A stretch of DNA of 64,000 bases from Nocardioides donggukensis. Lineage in GTDB: Bacteria > Actinomycetota > Actinomycetes > Propionibacteriales > Nocardioidaceae. The stretch's first letter is position 1. Every line of letters starts with the position of its first letter. The stretch lies in the NCBI RefSeq assembly GCF_014842875.1, contig NZ_JACYXZ010000002.1, positions 620,001 to 684,000 of the forward strand, in the 5' to 3' direction. Shown piece by piece: positions 47,207 through 59,915 of this stretch. Under the pieces are notes generated by a model that saw only the letters and a program-made list of their open reading frames with translations, did not search any database and was not told the origin of the DNA. A program made the translations under genes and the position numbers.

Positions 47207-48712
47207 GTGACGACGTACACACTCCGCAACGCCAGCCCTGCCAAGACCCGATGCGATGCCGTCGTGGTCGGGGTCACCTCGAGCAAGAAGGGCCCGGTGG
47301 TGGCCACGGGAGGCGGTGACGTCGCCAAGGCGTACGGGCGCAGGCTCGCCCCGCTGCTGGCCACGCTGGGCTTCACCGGCAAGGACGGCGAGACCGCCAA
47401 GGTGCCCACGGGCGGGACGATCAAGTCGCCGCTGCTGGTGCTGGTCGGCCTGGGCGAGGAGCGGGCGCTGACCCCCGTCGGCGTACGCCGCGCGGCCGGG
47501 GTGGCCGCCCGCACGGTCACCAACGCCGCCTCCGTCGCGATCGCGCTCCCGGCCGACTCGCCCGAGCTGGTGCGGGCGGTCACCGAGGGATTCGCCCTCG
47601 GGGGCTACACGTTCACCGAGTACAAGACCGACCCCAAGCCGGGGCGCACCGATGCCGGCGAGGTCGTGGTGCTCAGCGAGCAGGCCCGCAAGAAGGACAC
47701 CGTCGCCGCGTTCGAGCGGGCCCGCGCGGTCACCGCCTGCGTGGCCGGTGCCCGGCACTGGGTCAACCTCCCGGCCGGCGACCTCACCCCGCCGGTCTTC
47801 GCCGACGCCGTCGTCGCCGCCCACAAGGAGCTCACGTCGGGTCGCGGCGCCCCCAAGGTGGGGATCACCGTCTGGGACGAGCAGAAGCTGGCCGCCGAGG
47901 GCTGCGGCGGCATCCTGGCCGTGGGCAAGGGCTCGGAGGCTCCCCCGCGTCTGGTCAAGCTGACCTGGGAGCCCAAGGGCGCCACCCGGCACGTGGCACT
48001 GGTCGGCAAGGGCATCACCTACGACTCGGGCGGCTACACGATCAAGCCGCCGGCCTCGATGCTGCACATGAAGGAGGACATGGCCGGCGCCGCCACGGTG
48101 GTCCAGGCGCTGTTCCTCATCGCGCAGCTGAACCTGCCGGTGCGGGTCACCGCGTGGGCGCCGATGGCGGAGAACATGATCTCCGGCGCCGCCATGCGCC
48201 CCGGCGACGTGCTCACGATCCGAGGCGGCACCACCGTCGAGATGACCAACACCGACGCCGAGGGTCGGTTGATCCTGGCCGACGCGCTGGTCCTGGCCGC
48301 CGAGGAGAAGCCGGACACGATCGTCGACATCGCCACGCTGACCGGCGCGATGGTCGTGGCCCTGGGCGAGCGGATGGCCGGGGTCATGGGCGCCGACGAC
48401 GTGGTCGCCGGGCTCCGAGCCGCCGCCGACGCCGCGGGCGAGGCGGTCTGGCCGATGCCGATCCCCGACGAGATGCGGGAGCGGGTCACCAGCAGCAAGG
48501 TCGCCGACATCGCCCAGCACGACTGGGTGCGCTGGGGCGGCGGGCTCTTCGCGGCCGCCTTCCTGCGGGAGTTCACCGACGGCATCCCGTGGGGCCACGT
48601 CGACATCGCCGGCCCGGGGTTCAACCCCGGCGGTGTGCACGGCTACACCACCTCCGGCGGCACCGGCTTCGGGGTCGCGACGCTGATGGAGTACGTCGCC
48701 GCGCAGGCCTGA
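47207..48712 (+). CDS. pepA: Leucyl aminopeptidase (M17)
   Basis: The 501-residue peptidase has an N-terminal macrodomain-like half and the catalytic half with [25 protein letters not shown], and the signature NTDAEGRL (near 348) that supplies metal ligands. It removes N-terminal residues from peptides in the cytoplasm. GTG 47207 is fixed by the TAGAGT box. Only 19 bp after its stop lies a 3' remnant of a LuxR-family gene. Confidence 0.93.
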
Positions 48713-48731
48713 CCGCGCGGCACCCCTCATT

Positions 48732-48766
48732 GCATCGAGCTCGCCGCCCTGGCCCGACGAGGCTGA
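48732..48766 (+). pseudogene. 3' remnant of a third LAL-type LuxR regulator
   Basis: The 43 bp at 48732-48774 match 51738-51780, the last codons, stop and first 8 bp downstream of the intact LAL gene, with two mismatches. They still read IELAALARRG-stop in frame. Everything upstream of this fragment is gone, and pepA ends 19 bp before it. This marks a deleted copy of the same gene family directly ahead of the two intact copies. Confidence 0.8.
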
Positions 48767-48778
48767 CAGGCTCTTGTC

Positions 48779-49031
48779 CGCGAGCCTGACGATTGGCGAT
48801 ACCCGCTAGCCGTTCCGGCCCCGGGCTTGGACAATGGCCGCATGGAGCCTCGCTCCCCTGTGGTCGGGCGGGACGCCGAGCGGGAGTTGCTGGTCTCGGC
48901 GTTGCACGACTCCGCCACCGGGACCCCGCGGGCCGTCCTGGTCGCCGGGGAGGCCGGCATCGGGAAGACCCGGCTGGTCGCGGACGTCGCCGACGACGCC
49001 GCGGCCGACGGGCACCTGGTGCTGTGGGGAC
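48779..49031 (+). repeat. 253-bp duplicated block, copy 1 (upstream region plus first 63 codons of LAL-1)
   Basis: Identical to 51849-52101 except for one silent base (G at 48928, A at 51998). Identity stops abruptly at both ends; the rest of the two genes differs throughout. Confidence 0.95.
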
Positions 49032-51772
49032 ACTGCATGCGCTTCGGTGCGGAGTCCTCGCCGTACCTGCCGATCGGACAGGTGCTCACACAGTGGCACC
49101 GGACTGCCGGACCGCAGGAGCGACGCCGGGTCCTCGCCGGTGCCGCGGCGCTGTCCACCATCGCCCCCGCGCTCGGGGGCACAGCAGGGACCGCGCATCC
49201 CGACGGCACCAGCCGACTGATCCCGCTGACGGGAGCCGTCGTGGATCGGATCACCGAGGAGAAGCCACTCGTCCTCGTCGTCGACGACCTCCAGTGGGCC
49301 GATGCCACCTCCCTGGACCTGCTGGCCTACCTGATCAGCGGCTTCGCACCGGCTCGACGGCTCGCCCTCCTCGCCACCTTCCGAGACACCGACCTCGAGG
49401 ACGGACACCGGCTGCACGGCTGGCTGGCCGACATGCTCCGCCTGCCGGGCGTCGCGACCACCCGTCTCGAGCGCTTGGACCTGCAGGACACAGAGCACCT
49501 CGTGTCCTCACTCCGCGGCGGCACCGGCATCGGCCGGCTCTCCCACGACGTGTTCGAGCGTTCGGAGGGCAACCCCTACCTGACGGAGGTTCTGGTCCGC
49601 TCGAACGGTGAGCGGACGACGTCCGCCGCGACCACCGACCTCTCGACGGTCCTGCTCGCCTCCTGGCACCGGCTCACACCCCAGGCGCGGGCGCTCATGC
49701 AGTGGCTGGCCGTCGGCGGCCGACCCGTGCGGTTCGCCGACCTCGAGCAGGTCGCGGCCGGGATCGCGGACGACCGGTTCCGGACCTGCCTCGAGGAGGC
49801 CCGCGCCGAGGGGATCGTCCGCCTCGTGGCGCCTGGCGTGGTCTGGTTCCACCACCCGCTGCTGGCCGAGGTGATCGCCGACACGATGGGCCCCGGCGAG
49901 CTCAGGACCCGCCACGCCCGCTACGTCGACGTACTCGAGGCCGTCTCCGAGGATGTCGCCGCCGACACCCCGGACCATTCACGGGCTGCTCACCTGGCCC
50001 TGCACCACGAGGGCGCCGGTCACACGGACGAGGCGCTTCGATGGTCCCTGCTCGCCGCTGACGCGGCCGAGCGGGTGCGTGCCTTCGCCGAGGCGACCGA
50101 GCACCTGCAGCGGGTCTGTCGACTCTGGCCCGAGGCGAGCGACCGAGCCCGCGCCGCGGCCGGCGAGCGGGTGCCGATGCTCACCCGCGCCAGCGACAGC
50201 GCGCGCAGGAGCGGCGACCATCTCGCGGCCGTCCGGCTGCGTGAGGAAGCCGTGTCCCTCGTCGACGCACGAGCCGAGCCGGAGCTGGCCGTCGAGCTGA
50301 GCCTGCTGCTGCCCTGGCTGCGGGTGTCGAGCGGCCTCGACGACATGGTGCGGCAGACGACGTTCCGAGACATGCTGAGCCTGCTCGAGGGTCGGCCGTC
50401 CAGCTCCGCGAAGGCGCAGGTCCTGGCCCACGCGAGCTACCTCGCGCGATGGGACGGAGCCCCCGACGCGGCCCGCCTCGCCGAGAGGGCCCTCGCGATG
50501 GCCCGGGACCTCGGCTCGGAACGGACGTTGGCCCACGTGATGTCCGCGACGTCACTGCTCCGGGTGGGGGCGCCGGAGTCGCTCGCGGCCATCGAGGAGG
50601 CCGTCGCCCTCGCCTGGCGGATCGAGGAGCCCCGGCTGATCGGCATGGCGGAGTTCTGCCGTGCCGACGCCCTCTATGAGCTCGGCAGAGCGACTGAGGC
50701 CGCCGACCAGTCGCTCGCGGCCTTCCGGAGGATGGTGGAGCGCGGCTGGTTCCACGACGCCGCCTACGGGCTGAGCGCGACGCCGGCGCTGTACCTGTGC
50801 ACCCTCGGCCGATGGCCCGAGGCCAGGGCTCAGCTTCGGGAGCTGCTCGGCCGCCGGCAGGCCCCCCGCCCGGCCTCCTGGGTGCGCTCCGTGGCGGCAG
50901 TGCTGGCGTTCCGGGCGGGCGAGGCCGACCTGGCCCGAACACACCTCACCCGCTCCCTGGAGCTGGCCAGCGGCCCGCCGGCCCTGGGCGAGCTGAGCCT
51001 CCTGGCAGTGCTGGAGCAGCACGCCTTCGACGGCGGTCATGAGCGGGTCCTGGACCTCGTCGAGGCGCAGCTGCCCGAGGCGGTCGGCGCCTCACCCGCC
51101 GTGGCCGAGGACCTTCTGGTCCGGGCGGCTCGGGCGGCCGGCGAGCTGGCCTCCTTCCGCGGACACCGGTCCGACGCCGGCCGACGGCTGCACCGGATGG
51201 AGAGCCGGGTGGCACCGGAGCGGGGGTGGTTCGCCCGCCGCTCTCGCGAGGACCACGTCAGTCCGGCACTCAGGTGCGTGTACGCCGCCGAGCGGGCCCG
51301 CTGCCAGGACGACCGGGGCCCGCTGGTCGGGCTCTGGAGCGCCGCCGAAGTCGCCTGCGCGGAGGCCGGTCTTCCCTGGGATCGGGCGCTGGCCTGCTAC
51401 CACCTGGGCCAGGCCCTGCTGGAACGGCACGACCGCAGTGGGGCGGCCGGTGCGCTCCGGACCGCGGCGAGCCTGGCCACCGATCTCGGTGCCGCCCCGG
51501 TCGTCGCGGACGTCCACGCCCTCGCCGCACAGGCACACCTCTGCCTCGACCGACCGGCGCCTGCCAGCGACCGCGACGGCGCCCAGTGGCCGACCCTCAC
51601 CCACCGGGAGCGGGAGGTCCTCGCCCACGTCGTCGCCGGCCGCACGTACGCCGAGATCGCCGACGTCCTGGTCATCAGCCCCAAGACCGTGAGCGTCCAC
51701 GTCTCGAACCTGCTGCGCAAGACCGACACCGCCAACCGCATCGAGCTCGCCGCCCTGGCTCGACGAGCCTGA
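48842..51772 (+). CDS. Large ATP-binding LuxR-family regulator (LAL-1)
   Basis: The 976-residue protein has an N-terminal AAA/STAND ATPase with Walker A GEAGIGKTR (36-44) and Walker B LVLVVDDLQWAD (near 142-153). A long alpha-helical TPR-like middle follows, and a C-terminal LuxR helix-turn-helix (about 918-974; LTHREREVL, EIADVLVISPKTVSVHVSN). Such MalT-like proteins bind inducer and ATP and then activate transcription; the target is unknown. ATG 48842 lies 6 nt after GACAAT, a possible leaderless promoter. It is the first of two tandem paralogues and is followed at once by a perfect hairpin. Confidence 0.9.
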   Translation: MEPRSPVVGRDAERELLVSALHDSATGTPRAVLVAGEAGIGKTRLVADVADDAAADGHLVLWGHCMRFGAESSPYLPIGQVLTQWHRTAGPQERRRVLAGAAALSTIAPALGGTAGTAHPDGTSRLIPLTGAVVDRITEEKPLVLVVDDLQWADATSLDLLAYLISGFAPARRLALLATFRDTDLEDGHRLHGWLADMLRLPGVATTRLERLDLQDTEHLVSSLRGGTGIGRLSHDVFERSEGNPYLTEVLVRSNGERTTSAATTDLSTVLLASWHRLTPQARALMQWLAVGGRPVRFADLEQVAAGIADDRFRTCLEEARAEGIVRLVAPGVVWFHHPLLAEVIADTMGPGELRTRHARYVDVLEAVSEDVAADTPDHSRAAHLALHHEGAGHTDEALRWSLLAADAAERVRAFAEATEHLQRVCRLWPEASDRARAAAGERVPMLTRASDSARRSGDHLAAVRLREEAVSLVDARAEPELAVELSLLLPWLRVSSGLDDMVRQTTFRDMLSLLEGRPSSSAKAQVLAHASYLARWDGAPDAARLAERALAMARDLGSERTLAHVMSATSLLRVGAPESLAAIEEAVALAWRIEEPRLIGMAEFCRADALYELGRATEAADQSLAAFRRMVERGWFHDAAYGLSATPALYLCTLGRWPEARAQLRELLGRRQAPRPASWVRSVAAVLAFRAGEADLARTHLTRSLELASGPPALGELSLLAVLEQHAFDGGHERVLDLVEAQLPEAVGASPAVAEDLLVRAARAAGELASFRGHRSDAGRRLHRMESRVAPERGWFARRSREDHVSPALRCVYAAERARCQDDRGPLVGLWSAAEVACAEAGLPWDRALACYHLGQALLERHDRSGAAGALRTAASLATDLGAAPVVADVHALAAQAHLCLDRPAPASDRDGAQWPTLTHREREVLAHVVAGRTYAEIADVLVISPKTVSVHVSNLLRKTDTANRIELAALARRA

Positions 51773-51828
51773 CAGGCTCTACGTTCTGCAGGTTCTGGGC
51801 ACGTGGAACCTGCAGAACGTAGAGCCTG
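51773..51828. terminator. Perfect 23-bp inverted repeat between the LAL genes
   Basis: Arms 51773-51795 and 51806-51828 are exact reverse complements around the 10-nt loop TGGGCACGTG, beginning one base after the LAL-1 stop. A shorter hairpin with the same outer seven bases (CAGGCTC/GAGCCTG, 48767-48788) follows the remnant copy. It may terminate LAL-1 transcription, but the arms are only moderately GC-rich and no U-run follows, so an inserted palindromic element or protein site is also possible. Confidence 0.75.
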
Positions 51829-51848
51829 ACGCGCCGACTGTCCCGCTG

Positions 51849-52101
51849 CGCGAGCCTGACGATTGGCGATACCCGCTAGCCGTTCCGGCCCCGGGCTTGG
51901 ACAATGGCCGCATGGAGCCTCGCTCCCCTGTGGTCGGGCGGGACGCCGAGCGGGAGTTGCTGGTCTCGGCGTTGCACGACTCCGCCACCGGGACCCCACG
52001 GGCCGTCCTGGTCGCCGGGGAGGCCGGCATCGGGAAGACCCGGCTGGTCGCGGACGTCGCCGACGACGCCGCGGCCGACGGGCACCTGGTGCTGTGGGGA
52101 C
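51849..52101 (+). repeat. 253-bp duplicated block, copy 2 (upstream region plus first 63 codons of LAL-2)
   Basis: The second copy lies 3070 bp downstream of the first, with one mismatch. It includes the presumed promoter, so both regulators should be transcribed from the same signals. Confidence 0.95.
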
Positions 52102-54896
52102 GCTGCCTCCGGTTCGCGGCGGACTCGTCGCCGTTCCTGCCGATCGGACAGGTGCTCACGCACTGGCACCGACAGGCTGCGCCGGACGAGCGGGGCCGCG
52201 TCCTGGACGGCGCACAGGACCTGGCCGCGATCGCTCCGGCCCTCGGCTCGGCGCCGGGGTCCTCCCAGACGCAGCGGCTGGTCATGCTCGTGGCCACGGT
52301 ACTGGAGCGGATCACCGAGCAGACGCCGCTCGTCCTCGTCGTCGACGACCTCCAGTGGGCCGACACCACGTCGCTGGACGTCCTCGCCTTCCTGATCGGA
52401 GGCTTCGGCCCCGGTGTGCGCATCAGCGTCCTCGGCACCTACCGGGACACCGACCTCGAGGACGGTCACCGGCTGCACGGCTGGCTGGCCGACATGCGCC
52501 GCATGCCCGGGGTGGAGCCGATCCGCCTCGACCGCCTCGACCTGCTCGACACCGACCACCTGGTCTCCGCACTGCAGGGTGCCGGCGGCTCGGCGCGGCA
52601 GGCAGCGGCGCTGTTCGCCCGCGCGAAGGGCAACCCCTACCTCACCGAGGTGCTCCTCCGGGCCGAAGGCACCGCCGGCTCCCTCACCGGGGGTGCCAGG
52701 GAGCTGCCCGAGGTGCTGCTCGCGTCCTGGCACCGTCTGAGCCCTGAGGCGCGGGCGCTCATGCAGTGGATCGCGGTCGGTGGGCGACCCGTCGAGCTCG
52801 GGGTCCTGGAGCGACTCGCCCGGGGCCGCGACCTGTCGGTGTCCCGCGTCCGGACGTGTCTGGAGGAGGCGCGTGCCGAGGGCATCGTCCGCCTGACCCC
52901 GACCGGGGACGTCTGGTTCCACCACCCCCTGTTGGCCGAGGTGATCGGCGGCACCGTGGCGCCCAGCGACCTGCGTCGGCTGCACGGGGAGTACATCGAG
53001 ATCCTCGAGGACGCCGGCTCGGTCCCGGAGCACTCCCGGGCCACGCACCTGGCCCTCCACCACGCCGCCGCGGGCAACACCGACGAGGCGCTGCGCTGGT
53101 CCCTGCGTGCGGCAGCGGCCGCCCTGGAGCTCCGCGCCCTCGCCGAGGAGGCGGAGCACCTCCAGCGCGCCTGCCGACTCTGGCCCGACGCCGGTCCCGA
53201 CGCCCGCGCCGAAGCCGGCGACCTGGTACAGCTGCTGATCCGCGCGAGCGACTCCGCCCGGTGCAGCGGTGCCGACGTCGCCGCGGTCCGGCTCCGCGAG
53301 CAGGCCCTCTCCCTCGTCGACCAGCACGAGGAGCCCGAGCTCGCCGTGAAGCTGCGGCTGCCGCTGACGTGGCTGCGCATCGTGAGCGGACTGGATCTGG
53401 AGCCCTGGCCCCGCGTCGAGCCGGTCGCCGAGACGCTGGCGCTGGTCCGGGACCGCCCAGCGAGCCCGGAGAAGGCCAGGGCCCTCTCCGCCCTCGCGCT
53501 CGTCCTGATGTGGTTCGACGACCCGGACGCCCCGGTGCTGTCGGAGGAGTCGGTGCGCATGGCGCGCTCCGTGGGCTCACCGAGCGCCGTCGCCGGGGCC
53601 CTGGCCATCCGCGCGCAGATCCGCGCGGGCACGCCCGAGGGACTCGCGGACGCCGAGGAGGCCCTCGACCTGGCGTGGCAGGTCGGGGACCCCCGCCAGA
53701 TCGGCCTGGTCGCGGTGTGGCACGCACACGCGCTCGCCAGCCTGGGGCGCCTGGCCGACGCGACGGACCGGTCGCTCGCCGCCTTCGGCCGGATGCTGGA
53801 CCGGGGATGGTTCCACGATGCCGCCTACGGCATCGGCGCGGACCCGGCCCGCTGGCTCTGTGAGCTCGGACGCTGGACGGAGGCGGGGGCGCACCTGCGG
53901 GTCCTGATGAGCAGGCGCCAGGCGCCCGGACCCGCGGCGACGGCCAGGGGCGTTGCGGCGATCCTCGCCTACCGCAGCGGCGACCTCCCGACCGCGCGTG
54001 CCCACATGGCTCGGGCTCGCGAGCTGTCGCCGGGCTTCCCGACGGAGGACGAGCCGGATCGCCGGGCCGCGCTCGAGGAGGCCCGGTCCGAGGGTGACAA
54101 CGAGGGCGTCCTCTACCTCGTGGAGTCGTGGATGCCCCACACGCTCGAGCCGGAGCTGCAGTGGACCGGCGAGCTCCTGCTCCGCGCCGCCCGCGCCGCG
54201 GGCGATGTGGCCGCACAACCGGGGCGACGCGCGTCCGTGGCGGCCCAGCTGGCCCGGATCGAGGAGCTGGCCGGTGACCGGGCCCGGGAGATCCGCGACT
54301 GCGCGGGGGACGACCCGATGCTCAGGGCCGTCGGCCGGCTCTACCTGGCCGAGTCCGCCCGCTGCCGCGACGACCGTGGCCGCGTCGTCGAGCAGTGGGT
54401 CACCGCGGTCGAGGCCTGTCGGGCCGCCCACCTGCGGTGGGACGAGGCCCTCGCGACCTACCGGCTGGGCGAGGCGCTGCTCACCCGGGGAGGAAGCCGG
54501 GCCAGGGCGGCCGAGTCGCTGCGCACCGCGGCCGCCCTGGCCGCCGAGATGGGGGCCGCTCCCCTCCTCGACGACGTCCGGGCCCTGGCCGGGCAGGCCC
54601 ACGTCTCGCTCGACCAGCCCGGCGCCGACCTGGATGCGGCCGCGGACGCCTGGCCGCACCTGACCGCACGCGAAAAGGAGGTCCTCGCCCACCTCGGGGC
54701 CGGACGTACCTACGCCGAGATCGCCGACGCCCTGGTCATCAGCCCCAAGACGGTCAGCGTCCACGTGTCCAACCTGCTGCGCAAGACCGGCACCACGAGC
54801 CGGATCGAGCTCACCGACCTCGCCCGGCGCCGAGCCTCCGGCACCGTGCCGCGGCAGCGCACCAGGACCGCGGAGCGGCGAGCCGGCTCCCCGTGA
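51912..54896 (+). CDS. Large ATP-binding LuxR-family regulator (LAL-2)
   Basis: The 994-residue paralogue of LAL-1 is identical over residues 1-63, including Walker A GEAGIGKTR, then diverges. It keeps Walker B LVLVVDDLQWAD, the TPR-like middle and the LuxR helix-turn-helix (LTAREKEVLAHL, VISPKTVSVHVSNLL). The recognition helices of the two proteins are nearly the same, so they may share DNA targets while differing in the sensor region. A basic C-terminal tail of about 20 residues extends past the LAL-1 end. Convergent with a small membrane-protein gene. Confidence 0.9.
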   Translation: MEPRSPVVGRDAERELLVSALHDSATGTPRAVLVAGEAGIGKTRLVADVADDAAADGHLVLWGRCLRFAADSSPFLPIGQVLTHWHRQAAPDERGRVLDGAQDLAAIAPALGSAPGSSQTQRLVMLVATVLERITEQTPLVLVVDDLQWADTTSLDVLAFLIGGFGPGVRISVLGTYRDTDLEDGHRLHGWLADMRRMPGVEPIRLDRLDLLDTDHLVSALQGAGGSARQAAALFARAKGNPYLTEVLLRAEGTAGSLTGGARELPEVLLASWHRLSPEARALMQWIAVGGRPVELGVLERLARGRDLSVSRVRTCLEEARAEGIVRLTPTGDVWFHHPLLAEVIGGTVAPSDLRRLHGEYIEILEDAGSVPEHSRATHLALHHAAAGNTDEALRWSLRAAAAALELRALAEEAEHLQRACRLWPDAGPDARAEAGDLVQLLIRASDSARCSGADVAAVRLREQALSLVDQHEEPELAVKLRLPLTWLRIVSGLDLEPWPRVEPVAETLALVRDRPASPEKARALSALALVLMWFDDPDAPVLSEESVRMARSVGSPSAVAGALAIRAQIRAGTPEGLADAEEALDLAWQVGDPRQIGLVAVWHAHALASLGRLADATDRSLAAFGRMLDRGWFHDAAYGIGADPARWLCELGRWTEAGAHLRVLMSRRQAPGPAATARGVAAILAYRSGDLPTARAHMARARELSPGFPTEDEPDRRAALEEARSEGDNEGVLYLVESWMPHTLEPELQWTGELLLRAARAAGDVAAQPGRRASVAAQLARIEELAGDRAREIRDCAGDDPMLRAVGRLYLAESARCRDDRGRVVEQWVTAVEACRAAHLRWDEALATYRLGEALLTRGGSRARAAESLRTAAALAAEMGAAPLLDDVRALAGQAHVSLDQPGADLDAAADAWPHLTAREKEVLAHLGAGRTYAEIADALVISPKTVSVHVSNLLRKTGTTSRIELTDLARRRASGTVPRQRTRTAERRAGSP

Positions 54897-54923
54897 AGGG
54901 GAGGCGGCCCGCCGGAACCCCCG

Positions 54924-54958
54924 TCAGCCCGGCCCGTCAGCCCGTCAGGCCGGGCTGA
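54924..54958. terminator. Hairpin between LAL-2 and the convergent small gene
   Basis: Perfect 11-bp arms TCAGCCCGGCC and GGCCGGGCTGA flank a 13-nt loop. The right arm lies inside the last codons of the small minus-strand gene, so it can act for both directions. Confidence 0.65.
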
Positions 54959-55235
54959 ACGTCCGGCCCTGCGACCGGTCCTGCTGGTGCCGTCGCGCCC
55001 CGATCGCGACGGCACCCGCGCCGAGGGCCAGGCCCGCGGCGACCCCCACTCCGATCTGCACGAGCTCGAGCGCGCCGTCGTCGACGGGCACCTCGATCTC
55101 CCGGACGACCGTCGCTCCGCTCTCGCCGACGGGGACGCCCGGGTCGGGGATCGCGGTGGCGGGGCCGGTGAGTGTCAGCGTCAGGAACCCCGCGGCCAGG
55201 AGTGCCGGGGGGATCCGGGTGAGAATGCGAGACAT
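54945..55235 (-). CDS. Small secreted/membrane-anchored hypothetical protein
   Basis: The 96-residue protein has a signal peptide (1-25, LTGPATA then IPDPG), a short extracytoplasmic segment with VVREIEVPVDDG, and a C-terminal helix (about 58-80) followed by a basic tail. ATG 55235 has a GGAAGGA ribosome site. It resembles small surface proteins common in Nocardioides genomes but I cannot assign a role. The 119 bp upstream to the NYN gene hold nothing else recognisable. Confidence 0.7.
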   Translation of the reverse strand: MSRILTRIPPALLAAGFLTLTLTGPATAIPDPGVPVGESGATVVREIEVPVDDGALELVQIGVGVAAGLALGAGAVAIGARRHQQDRSQGRTFSPA

Positions 55236-55354
55236 GATGTGTCCTTCCAGAGGTGGAACTTTCCGACACCTCGACCCTCGTGGACACCGACGGCTCCGCA
55301 CATCGGGAGGACCCCCTCAGATGCGGGCCCAGGCTCCTCAGATTCCCCGGCGGG

Positions 55355-56131
55355 TCAGCCGCGCGACTTCTTGCGCTTGTCGCGCACCGAGACGTCGTTG
55401 GTGCCCTCGTGCGCGATCTCGAAGAGCTGGGTGGCCTTGAGCAGCTTGCTCATGGAGGCGTAGCCGTAGTTGCGCGGGTCGAACGACGACTGGTTGCCGA
55501 TGTGGTTGCCCACGGCGCCGATCCGCGCCCAGCCGCTCTCGTCCGCGGCCGACTTGACGGCGTTGCGGAGCAGGTCGACCAGGGCGGCGTCCTGCTTGAG
55601 CTCCGCGGTGGGCGTCCGGTGCGGCGTCTCCCGTGCCGACGGCCGGGCCGACGTCGAGACCTCGGGCTCGTCGTCGGCGTCGTCCTCCTCGTCGGAGACC
55701 CCGAGCTGGTCGAGGTAGAGGAAGCGGCTGCAGGCACCCACGAACGGCTCGGGCGTCTTGCGCTCGCCGAACCCGTAGACCGACGCGCCACGGTCACGCA
55801 GGTGCATCACCAGCGGCGTGAAGTCGGCGTCGCTGGAGACGATCGCGAAGGCGTCCGGCTCGTCGGTGTAGAGCAGCGCCATGGCGTCGACCACGAGCGC
55901 CATGTCGCTGGCGTTCTTGCCGCGGCTGTAGTCGAACTGCTGCACCGGGCGGATCGCCTTGGCGTGCAGCACCTGCTCCCAGCCCTTGAGGCCGGCCTTC
56001 TTCCAGTTGCCGTACGCGCGGCGGATGTTGGGCTCGCCGAACCCGGAGAGCTCGTTGAGGATCAGGTCGATCTTGACCGCGGGCGAGTTGTCGGCGTCGA
56101 TGAGCAGGGCGATGCGAGGCTTGGAGGACAC
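55355..56131 (-). CDS. NYN-domain (PIN-like) ribonuclease with C-terminal LOTUS/OST-HTH domain
   Basis: The 258-residue protein has an N-terminal NYN/LabA-type domain (1-150; IALLIDADNSPA, KNASDMALVVDAMALLY, VSSDADFTPL), whose conserved Asp residues would bind metal. An acidic linker leads to an OST-HTH/LOTUS domain (about 178-250; WARIGAVGNHIGNQ, YGYASMSKLL), an RNA-binding fold. It likely cleaves or binds RNA; targets are unknown. GTG 56131 follows TAGGTT by 6 nt, and that box starts right after the upstream gene's stop. Confidence 0.87.
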   Translation of the reverse strand: MSSKPRIALLIDADNSPAVKIDLILNELSGFGEPNIRRAYGNWKKAGLKGWEQVLHAKAIRPVQQFDYSRGKNASDMALVVDAMALLYTDEPDAFAIVSSDADFTPLVMHLRDRGASVYGFGERKTPEPFVGACSRFLYLDQLGVSDEEDDADDEPEVSTSARPSARETPHRTPTAELKQDAALVDLLRNAVKSAADESGWARIGAVGNHIGNQSSFDPRNYGYASMSKLLKATQLFEIAHEGTNDVSVRDKRKKSRG

Positions 56132-58100: not shown

Positions 58101-59915
58101 ATGGCCACCGAAGTCACCCTCCCGGAACTCGGCGAATCCGTCACCGAAGGCACCGTCACCCGCTGGCTCAAGCAGGTCGGTGACGAGATCGCGGTCGACG
58201 AGCCCCTGCTCGAGGTCTCCACCGACAAGGTCGACACCGAGATCCCCTCGCCGGTCGCGGGCACGCTGCTCGAGATCAAGGCCGAGGAGGACGACACCGT
58301 CGAGGTCGGGGCGGTGCTCGCCCTGGTCGGCGCGGACGGTGAGGGTGCGGACAGTGGCGCGGCAGACGAGGGGGGCGAGTCGGACGAGTCGGGGCAGGCC
58401 GAGGAGGCCCCGGAGGAGTCCGACGGGGACGAGGAGTCGACGCAGGACGACGCCGCCGAGCAGGAGCCGGCCGCGGAAGAGCAGGCCGACGAGCCGGAGC
58501 AGCCGGCCGCCCAGGAGCAGTCGGGCGACTCGGGTCGCGGCTCGGGTGGCGGCTCGGGCACCGCGGTCCGGCTGCCCGAGCTCGGGGAGTCGGTGACCGA
58601 GGGCACCGTCACCCGCTGGCTCAAGCAGGTCGGCGACGAGGTCGCGGTCGACGAGCCGCTCCTCGAGGTCTCCACCGACAAGGTCGACACCGAGATCCCC
58701 TCGCCGGTCGCGGGCACGCTGCTCGAGATCAAGGTCGAGGAGGACGAGACCGTCGAGGTCGGCGCCGAGCTCGCCGTCGTCGGGTCCGGTGACGCCGGTG
58801 GCTCCTCCCAGGAGGAGCAGCCCCAGGAGGCAGAGCCCGAGCCTGAGCCTGAGCCCGAGCCCGAGCCCGAGCCCGCGAAGGCCGAGGAGAAGCCGGAGCC
58901 GAAGCAGGAGGAGCCGAAGCAGGAGGAGCCGAAGAAGCAGGAGGCGCCCGAGCCCGCGAAGCCGGCGGCCTCCGAGGGTGACGACTCCGGCGACGGCGGC
59001 TACGTCACGCCGCTGGTCCGCAAGCTCGCCTCCCAGCACGACGTCGACCTGGCCTCGGTCACCGGCAGCGGCGTCGGCGGTCGGATCCGCAAGCAGGACG
59101 TGCTGGACGCCGCCAAGGCCAAGGAGGCCCCGGCGGCGCAGCCCGCCGCCTCCGGGCAGGCGCCGGCCGCCTCGGGCGCGTCGGCCCCGCCGGCCCCGTC
59201 CCCCCTGCGCGGCAAGACCGAGTCGCTGAGCCGGCTGCGGAAGGTGATCGCCTCCCGCATGGTCGAGTCGCTGCAGACCAGCGCCCAGCTGACCACGGTC
59301 GTCGAGGTCGACGTGACCTCGATCAGCCGGCTGCGGGACTCGGTGAAGGCGGACTTCGCGGCCCGCGAGGGCGTGAAGCTGTCGTTCATGCCGTTCTTCG
59401 CCAAGGCCACGGTCGACGCCCTCAAGGCGCACCCGTCGCTGAACGCCTCGATCGACACCGAGAAGGGCGAGGTCACCTACTACGACAAGGAGAACCTCGC
59501 GATCGCGGTGGACACCGAGAAGGGCCTGCTGACCCCGGTGGTCAAGGACGCCGGTGACCTCTCCGTGGCCGGCCTGGCCCGCAAGATCGCCGATGTCGCG
59601 GACCGGACCCGCAACAACAAGATCACCCCCGACGACCTGTCCGGCGGCACGTTCACGCTGACCAACACCGGCAGCCGCGGGGCCCTGTTCGACACCCCGA
59701 TCATCAACCAGCCGCAGGTGGCGATCCTCGGGACCGGCTCCGTGGTGAAGCGGGCCGTGGTCATCGACGACGCCAACCTCGGCGAGACGATCGCGGTCCG
59801 GCAGATGGTCTACCTCGCCCTCACCTACGACCACCGGCTCGTCGACGGCGCCGACGCCGCGCGCTTCCTCAGCGACGTGAAGCAGCGGCTCGAGGCCGGC
59901 GTCTTCGAGGTCTGA
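58101..59915 (+). CDS. sucB: Dihydrolipoamide acyltransferase (E2) of 2-oxoacid dehydrogenase, two lipoyl domains
   Basis: The 604-residue protein has two nearly identical lipoyl domains with lipoylated Lys in STDKVDTE (Lys43 and about Lys194), separated by an acidic linker. An EPEP-rich linker follows, then a peripheral-subunit-binding domain (about 298-333; [15 protein letters not shown]) and the catalytic domain ending [16 protein letters not shown] with the active His and Asp. It matches the actinobacterial E2 (SucB/DlaT) used by pyruvate and 2-oxoglutarate dehydrogenases. GAAGGA precedes the ATG. It is coupled with lpdA upstream and near lipB, which supplies lipoate. Confidence 0.92.

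Follow-up and report, generated by a model that had tools for sequence, protein, structure and literature searches.

The window analysed here is a stretch of 64,000 nucleotides from Nocardioides donggukensis (contig NZ_JACYXZ010000002.1, positions 620,001 to 684,000, forward strand). Two genes for large regulators, A and B, follow the leucyl aminopeptidase gene pepA in tandem, and a short gene, here called smp, converges with B. Start codons were assumed at ATG 48842 (A) and ATG 51912 (B). The genes, the repeated segments around them and a candidate operator are collected in Table 1.

Table 1 Features of the interval from pepA to the smp operator, numbered from the first nucleotide of the window.
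Feature	Position	Strand	Evidence
pepA (M17 leucyl aminopeptidase), to the left of A; approximate start	47219..48712	+	Pfam/NCBIfam; in relatives, orthologue close to lpd/sucB
TGAGGGGT, candidate remnant of an operator half-site, adjacent to the relic on its left	48722..48729	-	Weak; read in the sequence
Relic of the tail of A plus 8 nt of the palindrome	48732..48774	+	41/43 to 51738-51780
Copied block (promoter region of A with its first 63 codons)	48779..49031	+	252/253 to 51849-52101
Gene A, LAL/MalT-like STAND regulator, 976 aa	48842..51772	+	AAA_16 3.5e-29, GerE 4.7e-16; AlphaFold2 model
Relic source: 3' end of A, stop, start of the palindrome	51738..51780	+	Sequence comparison
Dispersed palindrome behind the stop of A, 23-nt arms, 10-nt loop	51773..51828	.	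All but 8 nt missing upstream of A
Source block (promoter region of B with its first 63 codons)	51849..52101	+	Sequence comparison
Gene B, LAL/MalT-like STAND regulator, 994 aa	51912..54896	+	AAA_16 1.1e-29, GerE 4.6e-16
smp, gene for a 96-aa protein convergent with B, proposed target	54945..55235	-	Homologues beside the LAL genes of G069 and G073
Proposed LAL operator upstream of smp: TCTGAGGAG-N12-TCTGAGGGG, then CCCGATG	55312..55342	-	Repeat scans

A and B are LAL/MalT-like STAND regulators, composed of an AAA_16 NTPase, a helical sensor and a C-terminal LuxR/GerE helix-turn-helix (HTH). The NTPase was found above the Pfam cut-off in both proteins, and the GerE domain scored 58.6 bits in each (cut-off 23.5). 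Walker A residues G36, G39, G41, K42 and T43 were invariant across 21 sequences. An AlphaFold2 model of A, predicted with 21 sequences, had a mean pLDDT of 85.9 and a pTM of 0.84, with the NTPase in front, an all-helical region at residues 379-897 and the HTH helices at 921-975. The large size (976 and 994 amino acids) and helical-repeat (TPR-like) sensor that characterize LAL/MalT-like regulators were both present. The top Foldseek match in the PDB was 6mfv, a STAND ATPase with a TPR sensor (E 9e-12, probability 1.00); at 13% identity and a TM-score of 0.30 of the query, the resemblance is one of domains and not of the whole arrangement. Against the NCBIfam MalT equivalog, A and B scored 24.4 and 23.9 bits where 537 are required, and the best stretch covered the HTH only.

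A preliminary description of this DNA had reported a 253-bp block, 99% identical, spanning the promoter region and first 63 codons of both genes except for one base. Self-BLAST and direct comparison bore this out: 252 of 253 positions are identical between 48779-49031 and 51849-52101, and the sole mismatch lies at 48928/51998. Residues 1-63 of the two proteins are identical. The sharing of one promoter, also proposed, holds at the level of sequence, the 63 bp 5' of the ATG being the same in both genes. The proposed abrupt boundary was seen as well. To the right of the block the first mismatch falls at 49032/52102, several more lie inside the following 35 bases, and beyond codon 63 identity fell at once to 57% for amino acids and 67% for nucleotides. 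Comparison of the window with itself joins 48779-50322 to 51849-53377 at 78% overall. The description of the remaining residues as widely different is correct insofar as near-identical heads are followed by diverged bodies; these bodies are nevertheless still 57% identical along their length, which makes A and B paralogues. The claim of near-identical DNA-binding helices also stands in part. The recognition helix ISPKTVSVHVSNLLRKT is the same in A and B, but it is C-terminal and lies outside the block, which holds Walker A.

Neither chance nor conservation can account for the block. When codons were shuffled (n = 2000), the longest coding run with one mismatch was 53 nt, versus 190 nt observed in A and B. 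Over residues 8-63, third-position identity was 0.98 for A and B and 0.35-0.61 for the remaining 44 of the 45 pairs among ten proteins (the G052 protein being ended at its first stop codon, without the HTH). Strong purifying selection on head and promoter, with no recombination, would agree with the presence of Walker A in the head, but it cannot produce third positions that are 98% identical here and 35-61% identical in 44 other pairs, and the 63 bp before the ATG are identical too. This explanation retains practically no probability. Among the pairs compared, a homogenised head was seen in A and B alone; a second tandem pair, in genome G069 of the genus, had a third-position identity of 0.48 and no homogenisation, which points to a single event and not a habit.

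The arrangement had been said to resemble modular sensor diversification. Active module shuffling, in which sensors diversify behind a constant front, would suit two genes that share promoter sequence and recognition helix and differ in their sensors. Of the two tandem pairs compared, however, one alone has the shared front, the breakpoint lies within the NTPase fold, and the genome otherwise holds only weak partial matches of 27-87 bp to the front block. In the model of A, the block ends (residue 63) inside NTPase strand 59-64, at no domain border, and divergence is far greater in the sensors than in the block. Sensor diversification was thus set aside as the cause, and shuffling of this kind appears very improbable indeed. 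Two narrower candidates were rejected: a front block that acts as a multi-copy module, given the weak matches elsewhere in the genome, and shuffling at a domain border, given the strand in which the model places the breakpoint.

The repeat proved larger than the preliminary description stated. Beginning at 48732, shortly behind the pepA stop codon (48710-48712), a segment of 43 bp is identical at 41 positions to the 3' end of gene A (BLAST E 5e-12). This relic contains the last 10 codons of A, the stop codon and the first 8 nt (CAGGCTCT) of the palindrome that lies behind A. As a whole, 48732-49031 matches the A/B junction at 51738-52101 minus the palindrome, with two gaps, and of the stretch between relic tail and block, most has no counterpart upstream of A. 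Most other copies of the palindromic element include CAGGCTCT or something very similar, which suggests that the element once stood upstream of A and was then lost. On sequence grounds, the best reading is that A was the recipient and that the DNA in front of it is a twice-gapped copy of the A/B junction; the copied A tail behind pepA shows that the junction was copied to the front of A within an existing tandem pair. Two changes in 43 positions of the relic compare with one in 253 in the block; this difference counts against the reading, and may come from relaxed constraint. As a separate observation, TGAGGGGT at 48722-48729 resembles a half-site of the operator described below, and may be what is left of a lost operator or a chance match.

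Simple gene conversion between the promoter and head regions, with no extra gene copy, would leave a 253-bp tract with a sharp right edge and a diverged flank, as found here. It leaves unexplained the 3' end of A, its stop codon and the palindrome end just before the tract, directly behind pepA, and left of 48732 the alignment shows no clear homology that could guide the tract. Plain conversion is for these reasons considered unlikely. Of the earlier proposal of gene conversion or a chimeric duplication, recent recombination with a sharp edge is upheld; plain conversion leaves the relic unexplained. An assembly artefact, with one repeat copy collapsed or mis-joined, was also weighed, since the repeat exceeds many short reads in length. 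The two copies are, however, individually marked by the one block mismatch, the two relic mismatches and the missing palindrome, and the genome consists of 5 contigs with no break at the locus; such an error is very unlikely.

The age of the pair was assessed from a tree of all columns after residue 63, in which A and B were sisters (support 100/99), each on a branch of 0.41 changes per column, and the G069 pair and the single gene of genome G073 formed a separate clade (100/100). A tree of the head only (57 columns) had supports too low for use, and L071 was omitted from the protein alignment for a stop in the given range. Compared with 1 change in 253 in the block, 0.41 changes per column on each sister branch make the A/B duplication much older than the block. 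Recombination within a long-standing tandem pair of LAL regulators probably left the near-identical fronts. A high-identity tract with a sharp edge against a diverged flank, the hallmark of recombination between tandem paralogues, is present, and so is the leftover end of a lost copy expected of unequal crossing-over, in the form of the 43-bp relic; a template switch would leave the same. What the DNA records is ordinary recombination between tandem genes, whose direction can still be read.

Under this proposal of recombination in the tandem pair, an exchange between the two gene heads, with a crossover near codon 63, would have placed a copy of the A/B junction (the 3' end of A, the palindrome, the B promoter and the first 63 codons of B) before the body of A. 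Unequal crossover between two chromosomes would give A, a second A with the promoter and head of B, and then B; deletion of the original A save its last 10 codons and stop would then yield the present order. Alternatively, a template switch during replication or repair would arrive at this product in a single step. Most of the palindrome would have been lost from the new junction copy. The outcome would be two regulators with the same promoter sequence and recognition helix and different sensors, both able to act on one nearby smp operator. The data show the anatomy of the sequence, its polarity, the phylogeny and the conservation of the operator; we infer the exact exchange mechanism, as we do the co-expression, DNA binding, activation and ligands of A and B. 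Among the 215 genus genomes searched there was no close sister, no three-gene state and no A with another front, and the pair had distant relatives only.

The palindrome that marks the junction is a dispersed element. Around it, 85 nt (51766-51850) fold as RNA at -52.5 kcal/mol (z -7.5). The genome holds 20 copies with both arms, each of 56 nt with nearly invariant arms and a variable centre; 14 of the 20 have no spanning ORF by a rough GC3 measure, and many lie close behind gene ends. None of 208 other genus genomes had more than three single matches to a 20-base arm pattern, those listed having two or three mismatches, and no family was seen; the L214 region, also inspected, contained no palindrome. 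A REP element moved by a RAYT was considered and rejected, the genome having no match to Y1_Tnp (PF01797). A literature search with the palindrome sequence returned, among the matches listed, titles that look unrelated.

A protein search found a strong LAL relative (E 1e-100 or better) in five of 215 genus genomes. Synteny was followed with tblastn, tblastx being too noisy. In three of the five, pepA and lpd-sucB flank the LAL genes, of which the window's genome and G069 have two each and G073 has one. Neither pepA nor lpd was found near the LAL genes of G026 and G052. Of 20 further regions, 19 had pepA and none of them an adjacent LAL gene, although two end early at contig ends, one of these barely past pepA; the twentieth (G055) had a distant LAL gene without pepA. 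In G003, the closest by pepA among 57 other genomes, the next gene recognised after pepA is an NYN gene about 130 bp away. In the neighbouring sucB, the lipoyl-domain segments 58121-58330 and 58575-58783 are 91% identical in DNA; the corresponding G069 pair is 89% identical and orthologous segments about 90%.

Just before the start codon, TGNACAATG occurs at the same place in all five pepA-linked LAL genes, which amount to at most four independent cases because the fronts of A and B are copies of one block. No exact match was present in the more distant LAL genes examined. The position of the motif suggests a -10 element and a leaderless or near-leaderless transcript. Transcripts of A and B would then share a start at or just before the ATG, behind TGGACAATG. 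Simple promoter and terminator scans of 48650-55450 found nothing, and Rfam gave no match in 48600-55400.

The product of smp looks exported or membrane-bound by eye and had no Pfam match. The gene was found in three of 209 genus genomes, exactly those with pepA-linked LAL genes (the window's genome, G069 and G073). Upstream of each of the three are two direct TCTGAGGGG repeats, 21 or 22 bp apart, followed by CCGATG; the copy in the window has one mismatch in its first unit. In 22 of 37 related loci, which include related and hence not independent species, this candidate operator lies no more than 500 bp from the LAL gene, and there was one further match elsewhere in those loci. The 37 comprise 32 of 80 related loci (those with a match spanning most of the query), the window and four loci of the genus; L133, with two LAL genes, was counted once. 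Unit, spacing, permitted mismatches and tail pattern were all fixed after the first matches, and the tail pattern was later widened. By the same final criteria, 12 shuffled units matched in 0-5 loci and four other spacings in 0-2. An earlier scan of all 80 plus five loci gave 21 matches, and eight reversed, complemented, shuffled or respaced controls gave 0-2. Operator-bearing loci came from several actinobacterial families: Kribbella, Arthrobacter/Paeniglutamicibacter, Phycicoccus, Actinoplanes-type, Agromyces and other Microbacteriaceae-type bacteria, and this genus. As evidence against the proposed operator, 15 of the 37 loci had none by the set criteria, among them L046 (the closest named relative), G026 and G052. 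G026 does carry a perfect operator pair (L239, G026:C19:32697-32727), and its LAL gene is on a different contig.

An ORF that starts with ATG behind a ribosome-site-like string, 40-300 nt away, follows 12 of 21 operators, and ten of these start 75-81 nt after the second repeat. Five were recognisable by eye as smp relatives; the rest differ, several being small and exported-looking. In this genome the 21-bp version of the operator occurs once with one mismatch (at smp) and once with three, against four occurrences of the reversed control, and the 22-bp version does not occur at two mismatches or fewer. The smp gene may be a target of A and B via the adjacent operator, and two sensors on one operator are plausible. 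We tentatively propose that this LAL clade forms a local module of one regulator, one direct-repeat operator (two TCTGAGGGG units 21-22 bp apart, then CCGATG) and one small exported or membrane protein. In this species, with two regulator genes that recombination has furnished with the same promoter, two sensors might converge on one operator as a two-input switch, a reading that is possible and somewhat short of an even chance. Literature searches found no such regulator, operator and small-protein module described among the matches listed, and for the operator sequence itself the titles among the matches listed look unrelated.

A and B have in common with MalT of E. coli and the LAL family the N-terminal Walker A NTPase, the helical-repeat sensor, the C-terminal LuxR-type HTH and the large size. 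MalT is described, in the portions of the sources consulted, as closed when bound to ADP and, once the inducer binds, as an open, multimerising ATP form (PMC4381067, PMC6468293), and by analogy A and B would be inducer-dependent multimerising switches of the same kind. MalT acts on direct-repeat sites, according to passages in PMC6099782 and PMC9628970; the MalT box quoted in an excerpt of the latter, GGA[TG]GA, differs from the operator unit TCTGAGGGG, and A and B, unlike MalT, apparently have one local target. TpdR of Rhodococcus jostii TMP1, as far as the excerpt of PMC6099782 extends, is an LAL regulator of 788 aa with a known catabolic target and inducer, and a promoter in which two direct repeats of 15 nt, which it perhaps uses, are separated by 13 nt; the likeness is that of an actinobacterial LAL regulator acting with a direct-repeat promoter element, compared without the repeat sequence. 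SCO6993 of Streptomyces coelicolor, an LAL regulator of 606 aa, shares the P-loop and C-terminal LuxR HTH with A and B, and is reported in part of PMC9628970 to bind palindromic sites and to have several targets; against the direct-repeat candidate here, those palindromic sites count against the functional reading. In the sections of the LAL papers compared, few binding sites are described, and the present analysis offers a candidate operator and target for one clade of these regulators.

Tandem paralogues recombine by unequal crossing-over and by gene conversion. A literature search on conversion between tandem regulators found nothing related. The locus resembles known recombination between tandem paralogues in its homogenised stretch, its sharp edge and the leftover gene end. 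It differs in that the promoter and first 63 codons alone were exchanged and in that the relic of a gene tail shows the direction. Debris beside a tandem gene pair thus gives the direction of the exchange that probably replaced a regulator's promoter, and the locus is a clean case of it.
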